From an uncultured Acidobacteriaceae bacterium (GTDB lineage: Bacteria > Acidobacteriota > Terriglobia > Terriglobales > Acidobacteriaceae), in assembly GCA_903828675.1 (NCBI GenBank), contig CAIKND010000225.1, positions 1 to 64,000 on the forward strand: a stretch of 64,000 nt of DNA, read 5' to 3'. Positions 5,254 through 47,428 of this stretch are shown piece after piece (position 1 is the stretch's first letter; each line of letters begins with the position of its first letter). A model generated the notes under the pieces. That model made no database searches, had not been told where the DNA came from, and saw only the letters and a list, made by a program, of their open reading frames with translations. A program made the translations under genes and the position numbers.

Positions 5254-7518
5254 CTGAAGTCAAAGAACCTCAGTGTCAATGCGCCTGCCGCGATTCTCGC
5301 CGCGATCTTGGTCCTTCAGGGAGCACCATTTGCCAGCCCCGCATCTCAGCTCCCGCTGGAGCTCCACTATCGCATCGCACCGCAACCGTCGGCCCGCGGC
5401 GTACCCCGTATCGGCGTCAATCTAGGAAGCCGCACTTATTGGGGAGCCGAGCAACTCATGGCCAACATCCTGGCCAACCCCGGCTTCGAACCCACAATTG
5501 ATGGTGCGGTCGTCTCCGTGCGCGCAGTCAGCGGTTCGGAGTTCACAGATGACACTCCGTGGCTTGCCCGCCCCACCGGTTTCTGGACCGGTGCGACCTT
5601 TTCGGTGCGCACCGGCCACCTTGCCGGGCTTAGCGGCCGCATTATCGACTCCGGACTCTGGCAGGGTTATCCGCACTTCCGGGCTGGGCAATCGCTCTCT
5701 GGTCTCGCTCCGGGCGACATCGTAGCCCTCTCGCGTTCCGGTAGCCCTGAACTGCCCGCTCATTGGTGGTGGCAGAACCCAACCCGCATCCACCCCAGCC
5801 CTTCCCATCCCACACCGTCTTCAGGCTCGCAATCGCTGCTCATGGCGCCGCTGGGCGAGCAGCCAGTGGCAGCCCTCTCATACGTGGATATGCTTAGTGC
5901 GCGTGCCGGCCGATTGCTCCCTCTTGCCGGGGAATGGGAGGTTAGCTTTTGGGCCCGGTCTGAGGCGGGCGGTCGGCTCACAGTCCAGCTTCGCCGCGAA
6001 AACGCCCCACCATTCCTGCGCCAAAACACTGTTCCCACGGCCACTTGGCGCTTATTTCGTTTCCGCTTCACACCGCACGACGATGCGCCCCCCGCTGGTC
6101 TTGAATTCCGCATTGAGGCCCAAGGCTCCGGTTCCCGAATCTGGATAGACGATGTGTCCCTTGCCCCAGTCGCCACGGCTGCTTCCGGCTTCCGGCCAGA
6201 GGTTATCGCCACACTGCGCCAGCTTCATCCGGGCTACCTGCGCGATTGGCAGGGACAGCTCGGCGATACCTTCGCCAACCGGCTCGCCACGCAGGCCGCT
6301 CGCCGGCCCTTTCGCTACCGCCCAGGCGACGAATCCGCCTTCGGCTATTCTCTCCCCGAGTTTGTGGAACTCTGTCACCAAGTGGACGCCCGCCCCTGGA
6401 TTGTCCTGCCAACAACCCTGAACGATGAGGAATGGAGAGCCGCCGGGGCCTGGATGCGCGACACCCTCAAGCATTACGGCTTCAGCGAAATCGTCGTGGA
6501 GTTCGGCAACGAGAACTGGAACGCCCTCTTCCGCCCCGCTGGGATAATGAACGCCGACAGAATGGCAGAAGCGGCTCAGCGCGGGTTTCGTCTCCTCACT
6601 GAGGCCGCTGGCCACGATCCCCGCATTCTCCCCGCGCTTGGCGGACAGTCTGTTAATCCATCACCCCTCGGCAAGGCTCTCTCCGCCGCCCCCGCTGCCC
6701 GCTTGGCCGCCTTCGCCCCCTACTATGCCCGCGAGATCCATCTGGGCGACCGCGAGCAGGACGAGATCGCGCAACTCTTCCTCATCGACAGCGCCGAACT
6801 CGACGCGGCGTCCCTCATGGCACAGAAGACCGCCACCCAACCGGCCATCTATGAGATGAACGCTCATAGCCTTGATGGCGACGCCCCTCCCGAAGAGGTG
6901 TCAAGGCTGGTGGCGAGTCAGGCCGCAGGCTCCGCCATCCTCTTTCACGCATTAGCCGCCATGGAAAGCGGAATCAATCGCCAGTGTCTCTACGCCCTGG
7001 CCAGCTTCGATACATTTCGCCAGGATGGCAAGCTCGTACGTCTCTTTGGACTCACACGTGACCTCGCTTCCCCCGGCCGTCTTCGCCCCACCGGATTGGC
7101 CATGGCGATGGCGAATCAGGCTATCGCCGGCGATGCCTATGCGCTCACGCCTGTCTCCAGTGGCATTGCTGGCCAATCGCCGATCGCCATCCGTGCCTTT
7201 CTTTCCAATGGCCGCTGGAGCTTCATAGCCGCTTCGGCCTCGCCCCGGGAACTTGAGATCTCAATCGAGATTCCCTATGGAGCAGCCCGGCCCCCCAATA
7301 CTCTCCTCGAGCTCACCGGCTTCTCGCCACTTTCAACGAACGAGGATGCGGCCTTGGTCGTTTTGAAGCCCCAACCGCTTACCGTCCAGTCAGGCCGTAT
7401 CCGCTTTCACCTTGCCCCCTATGGTGCTGCGGCAGCATACACCGAGCTACCCAGTGTTCCGAATCGAAACGGGTCAAGCTGGCACGCGTCTCGCCCTATT
7501 CCGTCGACATCAAGATAA
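5254..7518 (+). CDS. Secreted glycoside hydrolase-like protein of the exopolysaccharide cluster
   Basis: About 754 residues. The stretch from 5254 encodes an n-region with lysines followed by AAILAAILVLQGAPFASPASQ, a good Sec signal peptide. The only start-like codon directly before it is CTG at 5254, with AAAGAGGG 9 bases upstream. The frame is open further up to a TTG at 5107. A beta-rich carbohydrate-binding-like region (about 180-310, ending IWIDDVSL) precedes a TIM-barrel-like domain containing EFGNENW. The Glu of NEN (about residue 420) is placed like the acid/base of clan A hydrolases. The exact GH family is not recognised. It may trim or modify the exported polysaccharide. Confidence 0.75.
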   Translation: MKSKNLSVNAPAAILAAILVLQGAPFASPASQLPLELHYRIAPQPSARGVPRIGVNLGSRTYWGAEQLMANILANPGFEPTIDGAVVSVRAVSGSEFTDDTPWLARPTGFWTGATFSVRTGHLAGLSGRIIDSGLWQGYPHFRAGQSLSGLAPGDIVALSRSGSPELPAHWWWQNPTRIHPSPSHPTPSSGSQSLLMAPLGEQPVAALSYVDMLSARAGRLLPLAGEWEVSFWARSEAGGRLTVQLRRENAPPFLRQNTVPTATWRLFRFRFTPHDDAPPAGLEFRIEAQGSGSRIWIDDVSLAPVATAASGFRPEVIATLRQLHPGYLRDWQGQLGDTFANRLATQAARRPFRYRPGDESAFGYSLPEFVELCHQVDARPWIVLPTTLNDEEWRAAGAWMRDTLKHYGFSEIVVEFGNENWNALFRPAGIMNADRMAEAAQRGFRLLTEAAGHDPRILPALGGQSVNPSPLGKALSAAPAARLAAFAPYYAREIHLGDREQDEIAQLFLIDSAELDAASLMAQKTATQPAIYEMNAHSLDGDAPPEEVSRLVASQAAGSAILFHALAAMESGINRQCLYALASFDTFRQDGKLVRLFGLTRDLASPGRLRPTGLAMAMANQAIAGDAYALTPVSSGIAGQSPIAIRAFLSNGRWSFIAASASPRELEISIEIPYGAARPPNTLLELTGFSPLSTNEDAALVVLKPQPLTVQSGRIRFHLAPYGAAAAYTELPSVPNRNGSSWHASRPIPSTSR

Positions 7519-38515: not shown

Positions 38516-41140
38516 ATGAAGATCAGCTTTTCCGCTCCTTCTCTGCGAACTGCCTTCTTTGCCACCGAGCTTGCCTGCCTTCTTCTGACCTCGCTCGTTA
38601 CGGCAAGCGCCCAGCGCCTGCCCGCGACTGTTCGCCCCGACCACTATGACCTCGTGCTCACGCCCGACCTTAAGACAGCTACTTTCTCAGGTGTTGAGAC
38701 CATCGATGTAAATGTGGCCGAACCCACCAGCTCCATCACTCTCAATGCCATCGAGATAGCCTTCCAGACCGTGACCGTGTCGGCCGCCGGTCAGCAGCGG
38801 ACCGCCGTCGTTTCCCTTGACAGCGACAAGCAGCAGGCCACCTTCAACTTCCCGGCCAACATTCCCGCCGGCAAGGCCACCCTCTCCATCGCTTTCACCG
38901 GCATCCTGAATAACGAGCTTCGCGGCTTCTATCTCTCCAAGACCGCCCGCCGCAACTACGCCGTTACGCAGTTCGAAGCCACCGACGCCCGGCGCGCCTT
39001 CCCCTGCTTTGACGAACCCGCGTTCAAGGCCACCTTTGACGTCTCCCTCGTAGCCGACGCCGCTGACACTGCCATCTCGAACGGCCCCATCATCTCCGAC
39101 ACCCCGGGCCCCTCCGCAGGTAAGCACACCCTCAAGTTCCTCACCACGCCCAGGATGTCCACCTACCTGGTCGCCTTCCTCGTGGGAGACTTCCAGTGCA
39201 CCGCCGGGGAACAGGACGGCGTCTCCATCCGCGTCTGTTCCACGCCCGACAAGGTGGCGCTCACGCCTTACGCGGTCGATATCGCCAAGTACGTGCTCCA
39301 CTACTACAACGACTATTTCGGCATCCCCTATCCCCTCAAGAAGCTCGATCTCATCGCCCTTCCCGACTTCGAGGCGGGCGCCATGGAGAACTTCGGTGCT
39401 ATCACCTATCGCGAGACCGCCCTCCTCGTTGATCCCAAGGCCGCATCGGTAGGCGCAAAGAAGGAAGTGGCCCTGGTCATCGCTCATGAAATGGCCCATC
39501 AGTGGTTCGGCGACCTGGTAACCATGCAGTGGTGGGACAACCTCTGGCTCAATGAAGGCTTCGCCACCTGGATGGAGAACAAGCCGCTGGAAGCCATGCA
39601 TCCGGAGTGGAACATCGAGCAGAGCGTGGCCGATGGCGAAGGTGGCACCTTGAACATCGATGCGCAGCCAACCACCCGCGCCATCCGCGCCAAAGCCGAC
39701 ACGCCAGAAGAAATCAACCAGATGTTTGACGGCATCGCCTATGGCAAAGCCGGCGCGGTGCTGCTTTCCGTGGAAAACTACCTTGGCCCGGAAACCTTCC
39801 GCAAGGGCGTTCACGCTTACCTCGCCGCCCACAAATACGCCAACGCCACAGCGGAAGACTTCTGGGGCGCGCAGACCGCTGTCAGCCACAAGCCCGTGGA
39901 CAAGATCATGGATTCGCTGGTGGCCCAGCCCGGCGAGCCGCTCATTACCTTCGGCGAGCCCGCGAGCGGCCAGGTACCCGTGCAGCAAAAGCGCTTCTTC
40001 CTCAGCCCCAGCGTTCCAAACAGCCCCGCGCAAAAATGGACCCTGCCGGTCTGCTTTAAGGCCGGCGTAGGCGCACAGGACTGCCAGATCCTTACCCCTG
40101 AAAGCGCATCCCTCAAGGTTCCCGCCTCGAACCTCTTTTTTGCCAACGCCGGAGGCAAGGGCTATTACCGCAGCGCCTACCCATCCAGCGTCTACAACGC
40201 CCTCGTGGCCGCCGTTGAAACCACCCTCACCCCGGTCGAACGCATCAGCCTGGTTGGCGACGAGTGGGCACAGGTCCGCTCGAATAAGGCTACCGTTGGT
40301 GACTATCTCAATCTCGTCACCGCCCTCAAAGCCGACCCCAACGCCCCGGTCGTCTCCAGCGCCCTGGGAGGCGTGAACACTATCCTCGGCCAGGTAGCCG
40401 CCACCCCCGAAGAAAAGGCCGCGGTGGCTGCCTGGATTCGCCGCACCTTCGCCCCCGAGTACGCCAAGCTCGCGCCGCCCTCGCCTGATGACACGCCCAA
40501 CACCCGCGAACTGCGCGCGCAGCTCTTCGGCCTGCTCGGCTATCACGGCAAAGACCCTGCGGTGCTCGCCGAGGCCGGACAGATCGCCCAGAAATACATC
40601 GCCGATCCCACCTCCGTCGATCCCACTCTCGGCCAGACCGCGCTCGCCATAGCCGCCCGCAACGGCAATGCCGGCCTGTTCGATATGTTGCAAAAGGTCT
40701 CTGAGACCTCAACCAACCCCGAGTATCAGGTAGGCGCACTGCGCCTTCTGGCCCAGTTTTCAGATCCCGCGCTGGTGCGGCGCTCGCTTGACTACGCCGC
40801 CTCCGGCAAGGTCCGCAATCAGGACGCCGCCATTCAGTTCGCCATCGGTATGCAGATTGACGCCTCCCGCGACATCACCTGGAACTACATCAAAGCCAAC
40901 TGGGACAAGGTGCAAGCCCAGCTAACCACCGAGATGGGCGCAGCCCTCGTCGGTTCCACCAGCGGCTTCTGTTCCACCGATGCCCGCGACGACGTAAAGG
41001 CCTTCTTCGCCACCCACAAGGTGCCGTCCTCTGACCGCTCCCTGCGCCACGCCGTCGAACGCATCAACGGCTGCATCGAACTGCGCACCCTCCAGGAACC
41101 CAACCTCAAACAGTGGCTCGCCACCCAGCCCGCCAAATAA
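38516..41140 (+). CDS. Secreted M1 family aminopeptidase
   Basis: 874 residues. Signal peptide (MKISFSAPSLRTAFFATELACLLLTSLVTASA). Then the M1 N-terminal beta domain, the substrate motif GAMENFGAITYRE and the zinc site HEMAHQWFGDLVTMQWWDNLWLNEGF (HExxH plus the third ligand Glu 19 residues on). A C-terminal ERAP1-like helical domain completes the protein. It is a metallo-aminopeptidase acting outside the cytoplasm. Position between a membrane protein and the RHS island gives no functional clue. Confidence 0.93.
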   Translation: MKISFSAPSLRTAFFATELACLLLTSLVTASAQRLPATVRPDHYDLVLTPDLKTATFSGVETIDVNVAEPTSSITLNAIEIAFQTVTVSAAGQQRTAVVSLDSDKQQATFNFPANIPAGKATLSIAFTGILNNELRGFYLSKTARRNYAVTQFEATDARRAFPCFDEPAFKATFDVSLVADAADTAISNGPIISDTPGPSAGKHTLKFLTTPRMSTYLVAFLVGDFQCTAGEQDGVSIRVCSTPDKVALTPYAVDIAKYVLHYYNDYFGIPYPLKKLDLIALPDFEAGAMENFGAITYRETALLVDPKAASVGAKKEVALVIAHEMAHQWFGDLVTMQWWDNLWLNEGFATWMENKPLEAMHPEWNIEQSVADGEGGTLNIDAQPTTRAIRAKADTPEEINQMFDGIAYGKAGAVLLSVENYLGPETFRKGVHAYLAAHKYANATAEDFWGAQTAVSHKPVDKIMDSLVAQPGEPLITFGEPASGQVPVQQKRFFLSPSVPNSPAQKWTLPVCFKAGVGAQDCQILTPESASLKVPASNLFFANAGGKGYYRSAYPSSVYNALVAAVETTLTPVERISLVGDEWAQVRSNKATVGDYLNLVTALKADPNAPVVSSALGGVNTILGQVAATPEEKAAVAAWIRRTFAPEYAKLAPPSPDDTPNTRELRAQLFGLLGYHGKDPAVLAEAGQIAQKYIADPTSVDPTLGQTALAIAARNGNAGLFDMLQKVSETSTNPEYQVGALRLLAQFSDPALVRRSLDYAASGKVRNQDAAIQFAIGMQIDASRDITWNYIKANWDKVQAQLTTEMGAALVGSTSGFCSTDARDDVKAFFATHKVPSSDRSLRHAVERINGCIELRTLQEPNLKQWLATQPAK

Positions 41141-41206: not shown

Positions 41207-41228
41207 ATACGATTAGTGGTCTGCATCT

Positions 41229-41987
41229 ATGACGGACTCCGCCGTTTGTGCAAATGGAGTATATTTCTTGCGATCCCATTTCACCGGCAAAGAACGTGAT
41301 ACCGAATCAGGAAACGACTACTTCGTGGCCAGGTACTACGCCTCCAGCATGGGGCGCTGGTTAAGTCCTGATTGGTCGGCCAAAGCTGAGCCTGTGCCGT
41401 ACGCAAAACTGGACAATCCACAGAGCCTCAATCTCTACGCTTACGTTGGCAATAACCCGCTGATTCACATTGACGCTGATGGACACTGCTGGCCGCAGTC
41501 GCTTTGCAATGCGGTAAGCAATGCTTGGAACAATACCAAGCAGGCTCTAAACCAGGCAGGAAGCTATTTCTACGCGAAGGGTTTCAAGGGTACCGGCGAG
41601 GGAATCAAGGTCAAGCTGGGGCCGGTCAAGGTTGAGATCGGTGAGAGAAAGGGTACAGAGGTTGAAAGGCATTTGAACGGCGATAAGAAACAGGCGGAGA
41701 TCAAGGATGAAAAGAAGCTCAAGGTAGAAATTGGTCCCGCATCGGTCGAAGTCAAGCAAACGCAAACGGGTGACCAATCTAAGCCTGAGTGGAGTGTTTC
41801 TGGAGAGTGGAACGGCGTTGGAGGCTCAGGTGGCCAAGTTGGCGTTGGGGCTGATTTTTGCCATACCGAGTGCAGTTCGATAGAAGGTGGAGTAGAGGCA
41901 GGCAAAGCCTTGAATGATCTGATTAAGAATACCCCGCCTCCACAGCCAGGTTCCTTGGATGAACTCATGACAATTGCCCCCAAATGA
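41229..41987 (+). CDS. RHS core fragment with a C-terminal tip (orphan RHS-CT 1)
   Basis: 252 residues. HFTGKERDTESGNDYFVARYYASSMGRWLSPD..NPQSLNLYAYVGNNPLIHIDADGH is the RHS-repeat-associated core. It is followed by an about 170-residue tip (CWPQSLCNAVSNAWNN onward) rich in Lys/Glu beta repeats (KVKLGPVKVEIGERKG; KLKVEIGPASVEVK), with no family recognised. The YD repeats and the cage that normally precede the core are absent, so this is an orphan tip, not a complete RHS. There is no good ribosome-binding site at 41229. A small membrane protein follows as in toxin-immunity pairs. Confidence 0.6.
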   Translation: MTDSAVCANGVYFLRSHFTGKERDTESGNDYFVARYYASSMGRWLSPDWSAKAEPVPYAKLDNPQSLNLYAYVGNNPLIHIDADGHCWPQSLCNAVSNAWNNTKQALNQAGSYFYAKGFKGTGEGIKVKLGPVKVEIGERKGTEVERHLNGDKKQAEIKDEKKLKVEIGPASVEVKQTQTGDQSKPEWSVSGEWNGVGGSGGQVGVGADFCHTECSSIEGGVEAGKALNDLIKNTPPPQPGSLDELMTIAPK

Positions 41988-42078
41988 TACGGAGTACCCT
42001 CTCAGTTTGCTACTGCTAGCGGTTGGACCGGTGACCATCGACGAAATCTGTCAGATTGCAGTTTATGAAGGTGAGTTA

Positions 42079-42465
42079 ATGAGATTTAAGTGGCTCGAAT
42101 CGAAAGCAGTTTCCAGACTGTTCTTTTGTTCCGCTGTCGCATTCTTAACCCTTTGTTCGTTTACATCCTTGGCCTTGATTCCAGGGGTTCAGCAAATAGT
42201 GAACACTTCACGGATGGCTAATCAGCTTTTTGTGATCCCATTCTTTGCGGTGGCCGCTGTGGCAATTCCGTCGATGATTGCTATTTTCTGTGGGATGGCA
42301 ATTTTCTGTGCGTGCATAGACCATTCGATCCGTACAAAGGTGTTCTGGTTTCTCCTGTTTTTTGGGACTGGACCCATTGGATCAACTGTGTATTACTTCG
42401 CGGTGTATCGAGGTTATATCAAGAGGAAAAGGGAGGGTGGTGGCGGGTGGCCCCGGTCCCAATGA
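42079..42465 (+). CDS. Small membrane protein, candidate immunity protein for RHS tip 1
   Basis: 128 residues with three or four membrane helices (LFFCSAVAFLTLCSFTSLALI; LFVIPFFAVAAVAIPSMIAIF; VFWFLLFFGTGPIGSTVYYF). ATG 42079 has GAAGGTGAG just upstream. The last residues (GGGGWPRSQ) and the stop are supplied by a hairpin repeat starting near 42440. The W-x-GP-x-G-Y-R pattern of the last helix recalls the PLDc_N-type membrane module. The position right after an RHS tip suggests immunity; this is inference. Confidence 0.5.
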   Translation: MRFKWLESKAVSRLFFCSAVAFLTLCSFTSLALIPGVQQIVNTSRMANQLFVIPFFAVAAVAIPSMIAIFCGMAIFCACIDHSIRTKVFWFLLFFGTGPIGSTVYYFAVYRGYIKRKREGGGGWPRSQ

Positions 42466-42530
42466 TCGTTCCCAACCACGCTGAGGGTGCCCCCGGTCCC
42501 TCGCTCTTGGGGACCGGGGATACCACTACG
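42440..42530. repeat. REP-like GC hairpin repeat (R1)
   Basis: The unit begins GGCGGGTGGCCCCGGTCCC and contains the stem CCCCGGTCCC (42491-42500) with GGGACCGGGG (42510-42519). Similar units follow at 42707, 43127, 44487 and 44551. Confidence 0.6.
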
Positions 42531-42548
42531 ATTTGCACCGGCACACGT

Positions 42549-42746
42549 ATGATGAGCTCGACCACTCGCACAGCAGAACACGCACAAATGCGACCCCACT
42601 TCACCGGCAAAGAACGCGACTCCGAATCAGGCAACGACTACTTCGGGGCTAGGTACTACAGCAGCGCCATGGGCCGGTTCATGTCGCCCGATCCGTCCGG
42701 ACTTCTGGCGGGTGGCCCCGGTCTCGATTCTGAGACCGGGGATTGA
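42549..42746 (+). pseudogene. RHS core fragment 2
   Basis: HFTGKERDSESGNDYFGARYY-SSAMGRFMSPDPSG is RHS core sequence. It runs straight into the hairpin repeat R2, which encodes GGPGLDSETGD and a stop. No tip domain remains. Confidence 0.6.
42707..42743. repeat. REP-like hairpin repeat (R2)
   Basis: The stem CCCCGGTCTC (42716-42725) pairs perfectly with GAGACCGGGG (42732-42741), after the shared lead GGCGGGTGG. Confidence 0.6.
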
Positions 42747-42770
42747 TCTACGACGGAGGTATCCACATCT

Positions 42771-43265
42771 ATGATGATCTCCGCCGTTTGTACAACCACA
42801 ACACGTTTTTCGCCATCCCGTTCTACCGGCAAAGAACGGGATACCGAATCAGGCAACGACTACTTCTCTGCGCGCTACTACAGCAGTGCAATGGGACGTT
42901 TCATGTCGCCCGATCCGATCATCATGAATGATCTTCGGATGATCAACCCGCAGCGGTGGAACAAGTACGCATACGTCATCAATAATCCGCTGATTTTGAC
43001 TGACCCGACGGGCAAAGATGCGGCCTACGTAAACTTCAGTGGCATGGCGCACGGTTTTGGTCATGCCGGGGTTATGTCCATTCATCACGATGGAAGCGCG
43101 ACGTTTTCATACAAGGATGGGGATGGGCGGGTGGCCCGGGTGCCGGGAGTAGTGACCCCAGCCACTGAAGTTGGGTGCCCCAGGTCCGGGGTCCCCGCGG
43201 ACAGGTCTTCGTCCGTGGGGTGGAGGTGCCTCGCATTTGGGCACCTGGGAGAGCACGGACCTTAG
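42771..43265 (+). pseudogene. RHS core fragment 3 with truncated tip
   Basis: STGKERDTESGNDYFSARYY, then SSAMGRFMSPD, WNKYAYVINNPLILTDPTGKD: the most complete core in the array. A tip begins (AAYVNFSGMAHGFGHAGVMS, then HHDGSATFSYKDGDG) and is cut at about 43126 by hairpin repeat R3. The residues after that are repeat-encoded. The GFGHAGV segment vaguely recalls the His region of papain-like amidase tips; no firm assignment. Confidence 0.6.
43127..43258. repeat. REP-like hairpin repeat, long or compound (R3)
   Basis: Starts GGCGGGTGGCCCGGGTGCC. Includes paired segments such as AGGTGCC/GGCACCT around 43225-43248. It interrupts the RHS tip of fragment 3. Confidence 0.5.
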
Positions 43266-43510
43266 GGTGTGGTGGTTCAAGCGGACACCCATCAAGGCGA
43301 ATTTGTCATCAAAACATCAATCACAAGATCGCCCCCGTACCTCACTCCATCAAGCCTTCCAAGTCGCGCAAACGCTCAATGATCCACCCTTGCTGAAATG
43401 TGCCGCGCCAGTCTTGACACCTCGCGGGGCTGGCTCTACACTAGCGAAACGAATTCAAGCACTTACCCCCAAGTGCTAGCGTTTTGCTTTCCCAAAAACA
43501 AGGAGGATCC

Positions 43511-44449
43511 ATGCACGTCGTTGGCAAGGCTACGGCTTTTGCTCTTTTCCTCGTTCTGCAACCAACCCTCGTTACCGCCCAGCACGATATATCCGGCGCT
43601 GCGGACCACCCACTCGTGTCCCGCTACCCCGGTTCCACGATCTCTGTCTACAACGTAACCGACTTCGATGAATTCAAAGTGCCTCTCAGCCGGCCCGACG
43701 CGGGTGTCCCGAAGACCCAGACCATCGAAGGCAAAATAACCCGCATCGTTTACGACACTCCAGCTCCGCGCTCAGTGCTTGAAATCTACAGAAATTTCGA
43801 ATCCGCCCTTACCCATGCCGGTTTCAAGCCACTGTACTCCTGCGTCAATAACGATGGGTGCGGGAGTGGCGGTCCGACCCAGCTCTCATCCGTCGGCCGC
43901 GAGGACTGGAGTTGGGGCGCAGGCCATCGCTTCCTGGCAGCCAAGCTGGAACGCTCCGGCGGCACTGCCTATGTCACGGTCCACGTGGGCCAGTGGAGCG
44001 ACCTCTCCCGCGGCACACAAACGGTCCTCTTCGTCGTCGAGACCAAGGCCATGGAGAAGGACCTCGTAACCGTCGATTCCAAGGCGCTCGGAGACGACAT
44101 CGCCACCCAGGGCCACTCGGCCGTCTACGGCATCTACTTTGATACCGGCAAAGCTGAGGTCAAACCTGAGTCCGACGCGGCGCTCAAGCAGATAGGCCAG
44201 CTCTTGCAAGAGCAGGCTTCGCTCAAACTCCTCGTCGTGGGACACACAGACAACGTTGGCGGCTTGGCGTCCAACATGGACCTCGCCCGCCGACGCGCGG
44301 ATGCGGTGGTGAAAGCCCTCACCCTGCAATACGGCGTCACTGCTGCCCGCCTTTCCGCGCAGGGCGCGGGGCCTCTGGCCCCCGTGGCCAGCAACCGCAG
44401 CGAGGACGGCCGGGCAAAGAACCGCCGCGTCGAACTGGTGGAGCAATGA
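43511..44449 (+). CDS. OmpA-family outer-membrane protein
   Basis: 312 residues. Signal peptide (MHVVGKATAFALFLVLQPTLVTAQ). A middle domain with SRYPGSTISVYNVTDFDEF and NFESALTHAGFKPLYSC resembles DUF4892-type sequence. A C-terminal OmpA domain (VYGIYFDTGKAEVKPESDAAL, VVGHTDNVGG, LARRRADAVV, NRRVELVE) binds peptidoglycan. ATG 43511 has AAGGAGGATCC directly upstream. It lies inside the RHS island but its own sequence looks ordinary. Confidence 0.9.
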   Translation: MHVVGKATAFALFLVLQPTLVTAQHDISGAADHPLVSRYPGSTISVYNVTDFDEFKVPLSRPDAGVPKTQTIEGKITRIVYDTPAPRSVLEIYRNFESALTHAGFKPLYSCVNNDGCGSGGPTQLSSVGREDWSWGAGHRFLAAKLERSGGTAYVTVHVGQWSDLSRGTQTVLFVVETKAMEKDLVTVDSKALGDDIATQGHSAVYGIYFDTGKAEVKPESDAALKQIGQLLQEQASLKLLVVGHTDNVGGLASNMDLARRRADAVVKALTLQYGVTAARLSAQGAGPLAPVASNRSEDGRAKNRRVELVEQ

Positions 44450-44486
44450 CAGGCGGGTAACCCACATCCTGCCTTCCACAAATGAT

Positions 44487-44521
44487 CGGGTGGCCCAGGT
44501 CTCGACTTTGAGACCTGGGAT
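44487..44521. repeat. REP-like hairpin repeat (R4)
   Basis: CCCAGGTCTC (44494-44503) pairs with GAGACCTGGG (44510-44519), loop of 6. It follows CGGGTGG as in R1 and R2. It may double as a terminator for the OmpA gene. Confidence 0.6.
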
Positions 44522-44550
44522 TGTAAGATGATCGCATGCCGAAAGGGCTT

Positions 44551-44634
44551 GTGGCGGGTGACCCGGGTCCCGGTGATCTTTTCAACCTAAGTTGAGGGTG
44601 CCACCGGTCGCTCGCAGTTGGGGACCGGTGATCT
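44551..44634. repeat. REP-like hairpin repeat (R5)
   Basis: Starts GTGGCGGGTGACCCGGGTCCC. Contains CACCGGTC (44602-44609) paired with GACCGGTG (44623-44630). Organised like R1, with two GC blocks separated by a GTTGAGGGTGCC-type spacer. Confidence 0.55.
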
Positions 44635-44658
44635 CGGTACGATTCAGAGGGAGCGACT

Positions 44659-44736
44659 ATGACGGAACCCCCCGTGTGTACATTTCACGTGTGTTTTTCG
44701 CCATGCTACTTCACCGGCAAAGAACGAAATACCGGA
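44659..44736 (+). pseudogene. RHS fragment 4 (lead-in plus first core residues)
   Basis: MTEPPVCTFHVCF..YFTGKERNTG. The DNA is homologous to the lead-ins of fragments 1 and 3 up to CACCGGCAAAGAACG, then stops matching at the 3' end of polA. A relic only. Confidence 0.55.
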
Positions 44737-44740
44737 CCCT

Positions 44741-47428
44741 CTACTTCAGGTCCCGCCAGTTCGGCCCAAAGCCCAGGTCGGCCACCAGTGGCACATTGAG
44801 CTTTACAACCCCCTCCATTTCCGTCCGCACCAGCGTCTCCACTTCCGCAGTCTCGTCGGTCGGCACTTCGAAGATCAGTTCGTCATGCACCTGCAGAATC
44901 ATGCGGGTCTTCAGCTTGCGGCTGGTCAGTTCACGATCGATGGAGATCATGGCTAGCTTGATCAGGTCGGCCGCCGTACCCTGCAGCGGCGTATTGATGG
45001 CCGTCCGCTCGGCAAATCCCCGCTGATTCTGGTTCCGGCTCTCAAGGTCGGGAATGGGGCGCATCCGCCCAAACAGCGTGCGCACGTACCCATCCCGCCG
45101 CACCTGCTCCAAAGTGCTTTCAATGAACGTCTTAACCCCTTGATAGCGGGAGAAATACCTCTCGATATAAGCCTTCGCCTCGCCCTGCGGAATGCCCAGT
45201 TGCGCCGCCAGACCGAAGGCCGAGATCCCGTAAACAATCCCAAAATTCACCGCCTTGGCCCGTCCGCGCGTCTCCTTGTCCATCGTGTCAGCAGGAACGC
45301 CGAAGACTTCGCTTGCCGTCAGGGTATGAATATCGATGTTTTCCTCATACGCCCGCATCAGCAGCGGGTCGCGGCTGAAGTGAGCCAGCAGACGCAGCTC
45401 AATCTGCGAATAATCCGCCGAAAGCAACTGCGTGCCCGGCGAGGCTGTGAACGCCGCCCGAATCTCCCGTCCCAACTCCGTTCGAATAGGAATGTTCTGC
45501 AGGTTGGGGTTGACCGACGACAGACGCCCCGTGGCTGTGTTCGCCGCCTGGAAGGTTGTGTGCACCCGCGATTCTGCGTCGGCAAGCAGCGGCAGCGCGT
45601 CAATGTAGTTCGACTTGAGCTTCGACAGGTGACGGTATTCAAGCACGAGCTTGGGAACTTCGTTATGCTCCGCCAGTTGCTCCAGCACGTCCTGAGCGGT
45701 GGAAACTGCCTTGCCTTTGCCCCGGCTCGGCGGCGCCGGAAGGCCCAAGTGAGTAAACAGCACCTCGCCAAGTTGCTTCGGCGAATTGACATTGAACCGC
45801 CGCCCGGCCAGTTCGAAGATGCGCTCGCCTACCCGTTCCAGTTCCAGGCTGAATCGCGTCGAAAGAGCGCCCAGAACCCCGGAATCGATGCGCACCCCGG
45901 CCTGCTCCATGCGAAACAGCACCGGCGTCAGCGGAAGATCGATGTCCCGGTAAACAGATTCAACAGCCGCCTTTTTCAGTTCGACCATCAAAACGGGCAC
46001 CAGGGCGTGAATGGCTGAAGCCCCGGCTGTCAGCGTGGCCGGAGCCAACTGCCCATGACGCGCCGCCACGTCAGCCAGCGACTGCGTGGCGTGAGTTGGA
46101 TTCAGCGCAAACGAAAGCAACATGGTGTCATCGCATGAGCCGCGCAGTTGAACGCCCTGTTTATCAAGAAGATGCAACGCCAACTTCAAGTCATGCGTTT
46201 GCTTTGGCACGGATGAATCTTCGAGCAGCAATCGCAACGCAGCCGTCAAGGGAATACGCAACGCGATGGCTGAATCGGCACACACACCCAAACTGAAGCT
46301 GGCCTGTCTCTCCGCTGCCTCCGCCACGTCGAGCAGCGAAAACATCCGGGGCTGCTCTTCTTCGGCCTCCTCCACAACGGGCGCCGCATCCAGCGCGAAT
46401 GCAAAGCCATGCTCCCGGGCTGCCGCATAGAAGGCTGCGGATTGTTCTTCGGTCGGCTGCTCAAGGAGTTCGACAACGGGCGCAGTTTCGGATGGGGCCA
46501 GATCGCGAAGCATCGAGGTGAATTCAAGTTCCGTGAACAGCTCGCGGCATGCCTCAATATCCGGCGGCTGGGTCTCCATAGCAGCCAGATCCAGCTCCAG
46601 CGGCACATGGCTGTCGATGGTGACCAGCTCTTTTGAGAGCAGAACGGCGTCGCGATTCTGCTCCAGCGACTCGCGGTAGGTCTTGCGCTTGACCTCAGCG
46701 GCTCGGTCCAGCACCGCCTCCACAGTTCCGAATTCGAGAATCAGTTCCACGCTGCCTTTGTCGCCGATGCCGGGCGCGCCGGGAATGTTATCCACAGCAT
46801 CGCCGCGAAGAGCCATCACGTCCACGACTTTTTCCGGCGGCACTCCGAGCACCTCGACCACCTTTTCCGGATCGAGAATCAGGTTGTCTTTTTGCGGATT
46901 GAGGATCTTCACCTGCGACGTAACCAACTGCATCATGTCCTTGTCGCCGGAGACGATGAAGACCTCATGCTGCTGCTCGGCAGCCTCGCGGGCCAGCGTG
47001 CCGATCACATCGTCAGCCTCAAAGCCCTCAGCTTCGAGGATGGGAATCCGCAGTGCTTCCAGAGCGCGGCGAATGTAGGGAATCTGACGGCGCAGGTCCT
47101 CGGGCATCGACGCACGATTGGCCTTGTAGCCCTCGTAGTCAACTTCGTCGAAGCTCTGCGTCTTGCCGTTCCATTTCTTCAGCGGCCCCATGGTGCGCGC
47201 CCGCTCGTCCCGGAATACCTCACCGCTGACGTCGAAGACCGCCGCAAAATAGAGCGGCGAGAAGTCCTGGCGCAGCTTTTTGATCATGTTCACGAAGACG
47301 TAGACGGCCGCCGTGGGCAACCCGCCACGCGTGGACATGGGGCGGCTGCGCTGCATCGCATGGTAAGCGCGAAAGATGAACGACATGGTGTCGAGCAGGA
47401 AGACGGGCGGTTTGGCTTGGTCAGGCAC
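44741..47428 (-). CDS. polA: DNA polymerase I
   Basis: 895 residues. 5'-3' exonuclease domain (LLDTMSFIFRAYHAM, GDKDMMQLV, LRGDAVDNIPGAPGIGDKG). The middle 3'-5' exonuclease-like domain seems degenerate: the expected DxE reads ALDAAPV. Polymerase motifs follow (DYSQIELRLLAHFS, RGRAKAVNFGIVYGIS, LQVHDELIFEV). GTG 47428 is chosen as start (PDQAKPPVFLLDTM), 22 bases after the queA stop. The longer frame would read through queA's end. Confidence 0.96.
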   Translation of the reverse strand: MPDQAKPPVFLLDTMSFIFRAYHAMQRSRPMSTRGGLPTAAVYVFVNMIKKLRQDFSPLYFAAVFDVSGEVFRDERARTMGPLKKWNGKTQSFDEVDYEGYKANRASMPEDLRRQIPYIRRALEALRIPILEAEGFEADDVIGTLAREAAEQQHEVFIVSGDKDMMQLVTSQVKILNPQKDNLILDPEKVVEVLGVPPEKVVDVMALRGDAVDNIPGAPGIGDKGSVELILEFGTVEAVLDRAAEVKRKTYRESLEQNRDAVLLSKELVTIDSHVPLELDLAAMETQPPDIEACRELFTELEFTSMLRDLAPSETAPVVELLEQPTEEQSAAFYAAAREHGFAFALDAAPVVEEAEEEQPRMFSLLDVAEAAERQASFSLGVCADSAIALRIPLTAALRLLLEDSSVPKQTHDLKLALHLLDKQGVQLRGSCDDTMLLSFALNPTHATQSLADVAARHGQLAPATLTAGASAIHALVPVLMVELKKAAVESVYRDIDLPLTPVLFRMEQAGVRIDSGVLGALSTRFSLELERVGERIFELAGRRFNVNSPKQLGEVLFTHLGLPAPPSRGKGKAVSTAQDVLEQLAEHNEVPKLVLEYRHLSKLKSNYIDALPLLADAESRVHTTFQAANTATGRLSSVNPNLQNIPIRTELGREIRAAFTASPGTQLLSADYSQIELRLLAHFSRDPLLMRAYEENIDIHTLTASEVFGVPADTMDKETRGRAKAVNFGIVYGISAFGLAAQLGIPQGEAKAYIERYFSRYQGVKTFIESTLEQVRRDGYVRTLFGRMRPIPDLESRNQNQRGFAERTAINTPLQGTAADLIKLAMISIDRELTSRKLKTRMILQVHDELIFEVPTDETAEVETLVRTEMEGVVKLNVPLVADLGFGPNWRDLK

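Follow-up and report, generated by a model that had tools for sequence, protein, structure and literature searches.

A partly decayed array of orphan RHS cassettes with a conserved lead and 12-mer in an uncultured Acidobacteriaceae bacterium

A 64,000-nucleotide (nt) window from an uncultured Acidobacteriaceae bacterium, contig C225 of a 6.39-Mb draft assembly in 241 contigs, was found to hold a real, partly decayed array of orphan RHS cassettes, known in kind and unusual in form. The array sits between pepN, which ends at 41140, and polA, which lies on the minus strand and ends at 44741 (coordinates are window positions). Four homologous leads, each followed by ACCGGCAAAGAACG at 41283, 42603, 42825 and 44713, bear out an original prediction made from this DNA that four segments share a common start. 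That prediction was also right that no full RHS gene precedes the segments, their upstream neighbour being pepN. We assign roughly an even chance to the reading that this is a partly decayed orphan array in which the lead, together with a 12-mer at the start of the RHS core, forms a joint for precise exchange of cassettes.

The 12-mer, ACCGGCAAAGAA, marks the left edge of the lead cassettes and its silent positions are nearly invariant in the Acidobacteriaceae. The 23 copies in this genome read ACC in 23, GGC in 23, AAA in 23 and GAA in 22, where background usage, from long frames, is 0.50, 0.53, 0.31 and 0.47. Thirty-eight copies from relatives, drawn from loci reached through TIGR03696 matches, gave 36, 38, 34 and 36 for the same codons (background 0.43, 0.45, 0.36 and 0.46, from long frames of the same loci); the Arg and Asp codons after the 12-mer were at background usage. 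A codon-blind search returned 118 copies with ACC in 116, GGC in 117, AAA in 108 and GAA in 108, the Arg codon that follows being free (CGG 30, CGC 27, AGA 27, CGA 18, CGT 11, AGG 4). Copies fused to RHS genes (attached copies) carried ACC in 63/64 and GGC in 63/64. Judged by codon usage, this silent-site lock is strongest at the 12-mer.

The lead upstream has a regular order: a TACGAY box, some 15 nt, a TAYGAY box (mostly TATGAC), some 50 nt and then the 12-mer. In two subtypes the boxes lie near -76/-55 and -100/-58, and a third has a box at -27. We pooled 105 distinct non-attached sites from this genome, its relatives and named loci, taking 110 nt upstream of each. At least one TAYGAY was present in 86 of these 105 and at least two in 61, against means of 11.7 and 0.69 in 500 first-order Markov controls; the sites are related, hence not independent, and include the copies in this genome in which the motif was first seen. 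Spacing between boxes, measured in 65 cases, was 19-22 nt in 52 and 41-42 nt in six, and the commonest distance to the nearest box at least 35 nt away was 55 nt (36 of 86). Within the named set, a TAYGAY stood 40-64 nt upstream of 33/54 non-attached and 0/64 attached copies (Fisher P 2.7e-15), the labels being assigned by regular expression and the 54 including a few locus-edge copies with authentic RHS sequence upstream. A sequence model of 23 leads from this genome found matches in 24/120 genomes of the family (E <=0.01), some of them to the 12-mer end only. The third lead type (L054 11075-12100, L337 and L339) has a longer upstream frame, with LYD shortly before TGKERD.

Most leads also bring a start codon. 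Of 63 intact lead cassettes, 53 had an in-frame ATG ahead of any stop, compared with 14 and 16 in the other frames, and a stop came first in nine. All 25 distinct type I leads were open in the core frame, 24 of them with ATG at -54. To judge from these frames, orphan cassettes may be translated from the start codon of the lead.

Two other readings of these sequences were rejected. The lead is not a coding relic of YD repeats: the spacings 19, 20, 21 and 22 occur 5, 11, 25 and 11 times, not in threes, and the 25 type I leads lack three-base periodicity. The 14-mer that served as one of our search patterns is not a DNA uptake word, as its 25 exact copies in 6.39 Mb (40 at one mismatch, versus 3 for a reversed control) all lie at cassettes or lone joints.

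Outside the Acidobacteriaceae, 31 loci provided a small sample of 14 copies. The 12-mer was present in 6/6 copies from family f31, three of whose sites had box pairs (78/58, 77/57 and 63/43); none of the other eight copies, from six further families, had the 12-mer, and five read TGHER.

The 12-mer also coincides with the point at which homology begins. In four pairs picked from the comparison of tips (three orphan/attached, one orphan/orphan), blastn homology started at 594-601, position 601 being the A of ACCGGC, base 1 of the 12-mer. Between orphan C4b of this genome and G121, a genus relative assembled as a single contig, identity extended from the 12-mer across the tip and as far as the stop codon of the gene behind it. 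The next lead at the C4b locus starts 3 nt after that stop; in G121 only the -55 box was found there, the first box being degenerate.

Neighbouring cores, compared over their first 96 nt in 67 pairs, were 59-93% identical. Their longest identical block had a median length of 17 nt, reached at least 30 nt in 8/67 pairs and started at the 12-mer in 38/67, the last count being partly guaranteed by the site search and the whole comparison misassigning some type II leads. Across 28 copies in this genome, remnants included, lead identity showed no correlation with core identity (r = -0.09), and leads that agree completely over 55 nt sat on cores 59-69% alike. A unit of hairpin repeat plus lead recurs with different cores: over 55 nt of lead, C100a, C3, C185b and C206b share 98-100% identity, and W4 (the window's fourth lead), C237 and C38b are further copies.

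Leads also occur where the cassette is missing. Fifteen of 78 lead sites had no intact core, and nine of these 15 kept 15-34 nt of it. Such terminal joints stand behind cassettes in the window, at C185 and C38 of this genome and at the relatives' loci L311, L342 and L360, and C29 ends in a more degenerate one; an arrangement of n cassettes and n+1 joints was thus seen in some arrays, though not at C100 or C106. Apparently lone joints were seen at C237, L183 and L160, the last judged over 3 kb. By eye, the C29 joint (L058 ~6225-6275) is followed by an apparent short copy of the polA 3' end; polA is likewise the neighbour of the window's terminal joint (44713-44770).

The tips place the array among known elements. 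The C4b tip is 57.6% identical over 184 amino acids (aa) to one that G121 carries fused to an RHS-core protein of 961 aa, a protein with Ig-like domains. Since this tip is an orphan here and RHS-fused in the relative, the array is, on sequence comparison, of the known kind of displaced rhs-CT cassette, and the original idea of a store of displaced tips is supported in kind. The array shares with described orphan arrays a core fragment followed by a variable tip (lost from segment 2) and the occurrence of the same tips fused to RHS elsewhere. Cores of variable length that are identical within a locus, another trait of such arrays, were not found; the lead cassettes share one edge, to which search bias contributes. 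Among 18 frames of this genome outside the window, an M23 peptidase (C185b) and a DUF922 domain (C4c) exceeded the Pfam cut-offs, and the remaining frames had no Pfam match or matches below cut-off only; HEXXH-like motifs were seen by eye in other tips of this genome. Small open reading frames (ORFs) follow several cassettes, and 3/10 scanned exceeded a Pfam cut-off (TonB_C, DUF6843 and Lcl_C). They are putative immunity genes by position only, their Pfam matches showing no immunity function.

The layout of the window array is given in Table 1. Matches to the RHS core (TIGR03696) in segments 1-3 had E values of 1.8e-16, 5.6e-11 and 1.2e-16, which together with the 14-mer counts given above place the array beyond chance. 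All four segments had been predicted to encode FTGKERD..ESGNDYF; segments 1-3 do contain TGKERD(T/S)ESGNDYF, whereas segment 4 reads TGKERNTGP and loses core likeness after ~27 nt. The tip of cassette 1 had no Pfam match over cut-off, and the ORF behind it had no Pfam match and appeared membrane-like by eye. REP-like hairpin repeats precede many leads and cut 2/3 of the window tips; that in cassette 2 interrupts the core ~100 nt in. Because two of the three tips are broken, the window array looks largely decayed.

Table 1 Features of the orphan RHS cassette array in the window.
Feature	Positions	Strand	Details
Lead W1	41208..41296	+	TACGAT box 41208, TATGAC box 41228, 12-mer from 41283
Cassette 1	41229..41987	+	252-aa frame, ATG inside lead; Rhs_assc_core at residues 17-86, plus tip
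ORF behind cassette 1	42079..42465	+	128 aa; candidate immunity gene by position only
Hairpin repeat	42435..42533	+	GGGTGGCCC..GGGGACCGGGG, families D3/D4
Lead W2	42527..42616	+	Boxes 42527 and 42548, 12-mer from 42603
Cassette 2	42603..42707	+	Core fragment cut by hairpin repeat, without tip
Lead W3	42749..42838	+	Boxes 42749 and 42770, 12-mer from 42825
Cassette 3	42771..43265	+	164-aa frame; core and short tip reaching hairpin repeat near 43120
OmpA-family gene	43514-44449		Behind cassette 3
Lead W4	44638-44726	+	Boxes 44638 and 44658
Terminal joint W4	44638..44740	+	Lead, 12-mer from 44713, ~27 nt core remnant, then polA stop codon
Hairpin repeats	42435-42533, 42708-42745, ~43113-43260, 44546-44644		GGGTGGCCC..GGGACC

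The original prediction further held that the stored tips could be recombined onto a complete RHS gene elsewhere, which is unsupported in this genome. A whole-genome search with TIGR03696 gave 23 core matches, spread over 11 contigs and every one in a frame of 58-529 aa; 22/23 had no internal stop and 22/23 lay in frames of 172-529 aa. A full-length rhs gene upstream of orphans was not found in the draft assembly. Searches for RHS repeats returned no PF05593 match and one TIGR01643 match below cut-off (E 1.67). As a control, PF05593 was scored on RHS proteins of genus relatives: two long ones reached 71.5 and 81.5 bits, and the 961-aa protein of G121 reached 21.8, just below the cut-off of 22. 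A divergent RHS gene could therefore escape the repeat search, and better evidence on the carrier gene comes from the lengths of the frames that contain the 23 cores. Two RHS 3' parts in this genome, C4a (L057 4532-6016) and C233a (L059 843-2432), scored 15.6 and 13.9; they have 211 and 271 residues before the core and, by eye, start directly after repeat sequence, an appearance that would fit loss of the RHS body at a repeat. Arrays on C100, C4, C3, C38, C204 and C233 sit on small contigs or reach a contig end, so parts of them, a carrier gene included, may be hidden in the draft assembly. A MobF-type relaxase/helicase (TrwC, AAA_30) in two frames was noted upstream of array C4 (L057 1189-3921).

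Within the genus, core matches were present in 33/59 genomes, this one included; it had 23 and the next highest 7. Other sampled members of the genus have some core matches in long RHS frames. Among relatives, G186, G121 and G124 each have a lead cassette behind a longer frame, in which 1405, 703 and 639 residues, respectively, precede the core. Across the family, through which arrays of this kind are spread, the core was found in 87/120 genomes and the RHS repeat in 63/120. No pepN, OmpA gene or cassette was found in the polA flanks of 19 genus relatives, of which L259 and L263 have <500 bases beyond polA, too short to judge. The prediction would have fallen had the genome no full RHS gene and all relatives an identical decayed array; the gene was indeed not found, whereas the array is not common to relatives, none appearing beside polA in the 19 flanks. 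Two loci from two genera (G069:C16 and G049:C7; L098 and L099) carry orphans of 323, 341 and 279 aa in the same order, a likeness that suggests a shared or transferred array.

Several described systems resemble these cassettes. Enterobacterial orphan rhs-CT/rhsI modules are likewise tandem units of core fragment, variable tip and small gene, with the same tips RHS-fused elsewhere, according to the accessible parts of three papers (PMC2935791, PMC3150448, PMC3967940). As far as the text of PMC2935791 was available, their core fragments vary in length, and attached and dissociated tips of the strains compared had identical cores, whereas the present cassettes have one common edge and neighbouring cores that differ. 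The orphans described in the available sections of PMC3967940 and PMC3150448 usually lack start signals, whereas most here have an in-frame ATG; the conserved lead and 12-mer, and a genome in which no carrier gene was found, also set the present arrays apart from those modules as the same sections describe them. Orphan cdiA-CT/cdiI arrays are similar in that homology of one pair runs from VENN to the next VENN, and differ in their carrier and its variable upstream length, with no phased lead mentioned in the portions of the text at hand (PMC3150448). The mafB-CT cassettes also occur with and without start codons and are followed by immunity genes; they belong to Neisseria only and to another carrier protein, and the available passages mention neither a lead nor a locked word (PMC4287609). 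Standalone toxin cassettes in general are treated in part of PMC3482391. The open-licence PMC literature searched, so far as its text was accessible, contained no mention of such a lead or locked word, and no paper on Granulicella with an RHS repeat-associated core was found in open-licence PMC text.

The gene cassettes of integrons are separated by repeated joints, n+1 for n cassettes, and have precise edges. The present arrays would work like them, with cassettes between repeated joints and apparently precise edges. Unlike integrons, they have no integrase linked to them and no consensus fold in the lead.

The published model for rhs tip displacement invokes homologous recombination with circles, its authors noting that integron exchange requires an integrase and that none was known with Rhs (Jackson et al. 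2009, PMC2935791, accessible parts). The arrays described here also fit circles, but with an exchange point that would lie at the lead plus 12-mer. Cassettes, we propose, may be exchanged there as follows. A circle composed of 12-mer, core, tip, immunity gene and lead would recombine at the 12-mer of an RHS gene, thereby loading a new tip and pushing the old one downstream behind the lead. Recombination at a lone joint would yield n+1 joints for n cassettes. Besides its pair of TAYGAY boxes, spaced by about two helical turns, the lead supplies an in-frame start codon in most copies, so that an orphan may be translated. Joints and cassettes have multiplied in this genome, where no RHS carrier gene was found.

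A number of observations weigh against exchange at such a joint. No circle, recombination or exchange has been seen, and homologous recombination could have moved the arrays in the distant past, with divergence since. No recombinase is linked to them: among 41 tyrosine-recombinase matches genome-wide, the only ones close to arrays are short pieces near C4 and C106. RNAalifold predicted no consensus pair in 23 leads, on which ground a folded attC-like lead was rejected. The fixed edge is in part a product of the search, since sites were found by a TGK(E/Q) motif or a near-14-mer pattern and other edges would escape; orphans with longer, authentic RHS sequence upstream do exist. No terminal lead was present at C100 or C106, 3/9 of the short terminal joints are one base off the 12-mer, and 21 of the 54 non-attached copies, the set that includes a few locus-edge copies, lack a box at 40-64 nt. 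Silent sites are skewed beyond the 12-mer too: GAA at codon 8 (98/118 codon-blind copies, 23/23 in this genome), TCA at codon 9, GAC at 12, GGG at 15 and AGG at 17 in this genome, and codon 8 (29/38) and, more weakly, 7, 14, 15 and 17 in relatives. Finally, the suggestion that a lead travels with its upstream cassette proved weak, with one homologous upstream gene pair among 50 leads, at rank 208/1225.

Phage carriage was discarded: cassette 1 had no relative in viral_contigs, and the hits of the gapped pattern in three viral contigs all fell in a single stretch, shared by the three, that is unrelated and lies within a reading frame. Plasmid records gave only cores of <60% identity. A tyrosine-recombinase piece with a stop (G000:C106:145540-145650) lies about 1.5 kb behind the C106 core.

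Ordinary displacement of rhs tips by homologous recombination between cores, with the lead carried along from one ancestral orphan, is a possible alternative that we regard as rather doubtful. It predicts the same gene order, and the layout in relatives is indeed an RHS gene followed by orphans with tip and small gene; it also accommodates orphans with authentic RHS upstream and needs no linked recombinase. The paper that proposed this model described identical cores for attached and dissociated tips of the strains compared, and core fragments of variable length (accessible parts of PMC2935791). The cores within a locus here are only 59-93% identical over their first 96 nt and share short identical blocks, and the strongest silent-site lock at the 12-mer, the conserved box spacing and the terminal joints with 15-34 nt of core weigh against it too.

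Plain decay, by which the arrays are remnants of RHS loci broken by hairpin repeats and have no present function, seems unlikely. It is favoured by the truncation of 2/3 window tips by hairpin repeats, by the start of C4a and C233a right behind repeat sequence (by eye) and by the absence of a carrier gene from the matches found. Set against this are the 22/23 cores without stops, the 22/23 in frames of 172-529 aa, and a lead and 12-mer conserved at the DNA level across genera. Less probable again, in our estimate, is that the lead is mainly an expression module and the arrays are sets of expressed small effector and immunity genes, not a store. The in-frame ATG in 53/63 intact cassettes (14 and 16 in other frames) and the 25/25 open type I leads, 24 with ATG at -54, are what such a module would show; the nine cassettes of 63 in which a stop comes first are not, and neither the 12-mer lock in RHS-fused genes (63/64 for ACC and for GGC) nor the gene-less terminal joints are explained by it.

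Beyond the joint itself, we tentatively put forward, with considerable doubt, that the Acidobacteriaceae and at least one other Acidobacteriota family possess an integron-like, non-integron cassette system for RHS tips. An unlinked recombinase would insert, excise and stack tip-immunity cassettes at dispersed joints made of protein-bound phased TAYGAY boxes and a 12-mer that is also hidden in RHS genes, and lone joints would be empty docks. To explain the change of tips in polymorphic toxins, the published rhs model relies on homologous recombination between near-identical cores. If the reading offered here is true, a family-wide joint with DNA-level constraint inside the RHS frame would make tip exchange a precise, testable reaction, and the shared joint could account for the accumulation of tips in a genome without a visible carrier gene.

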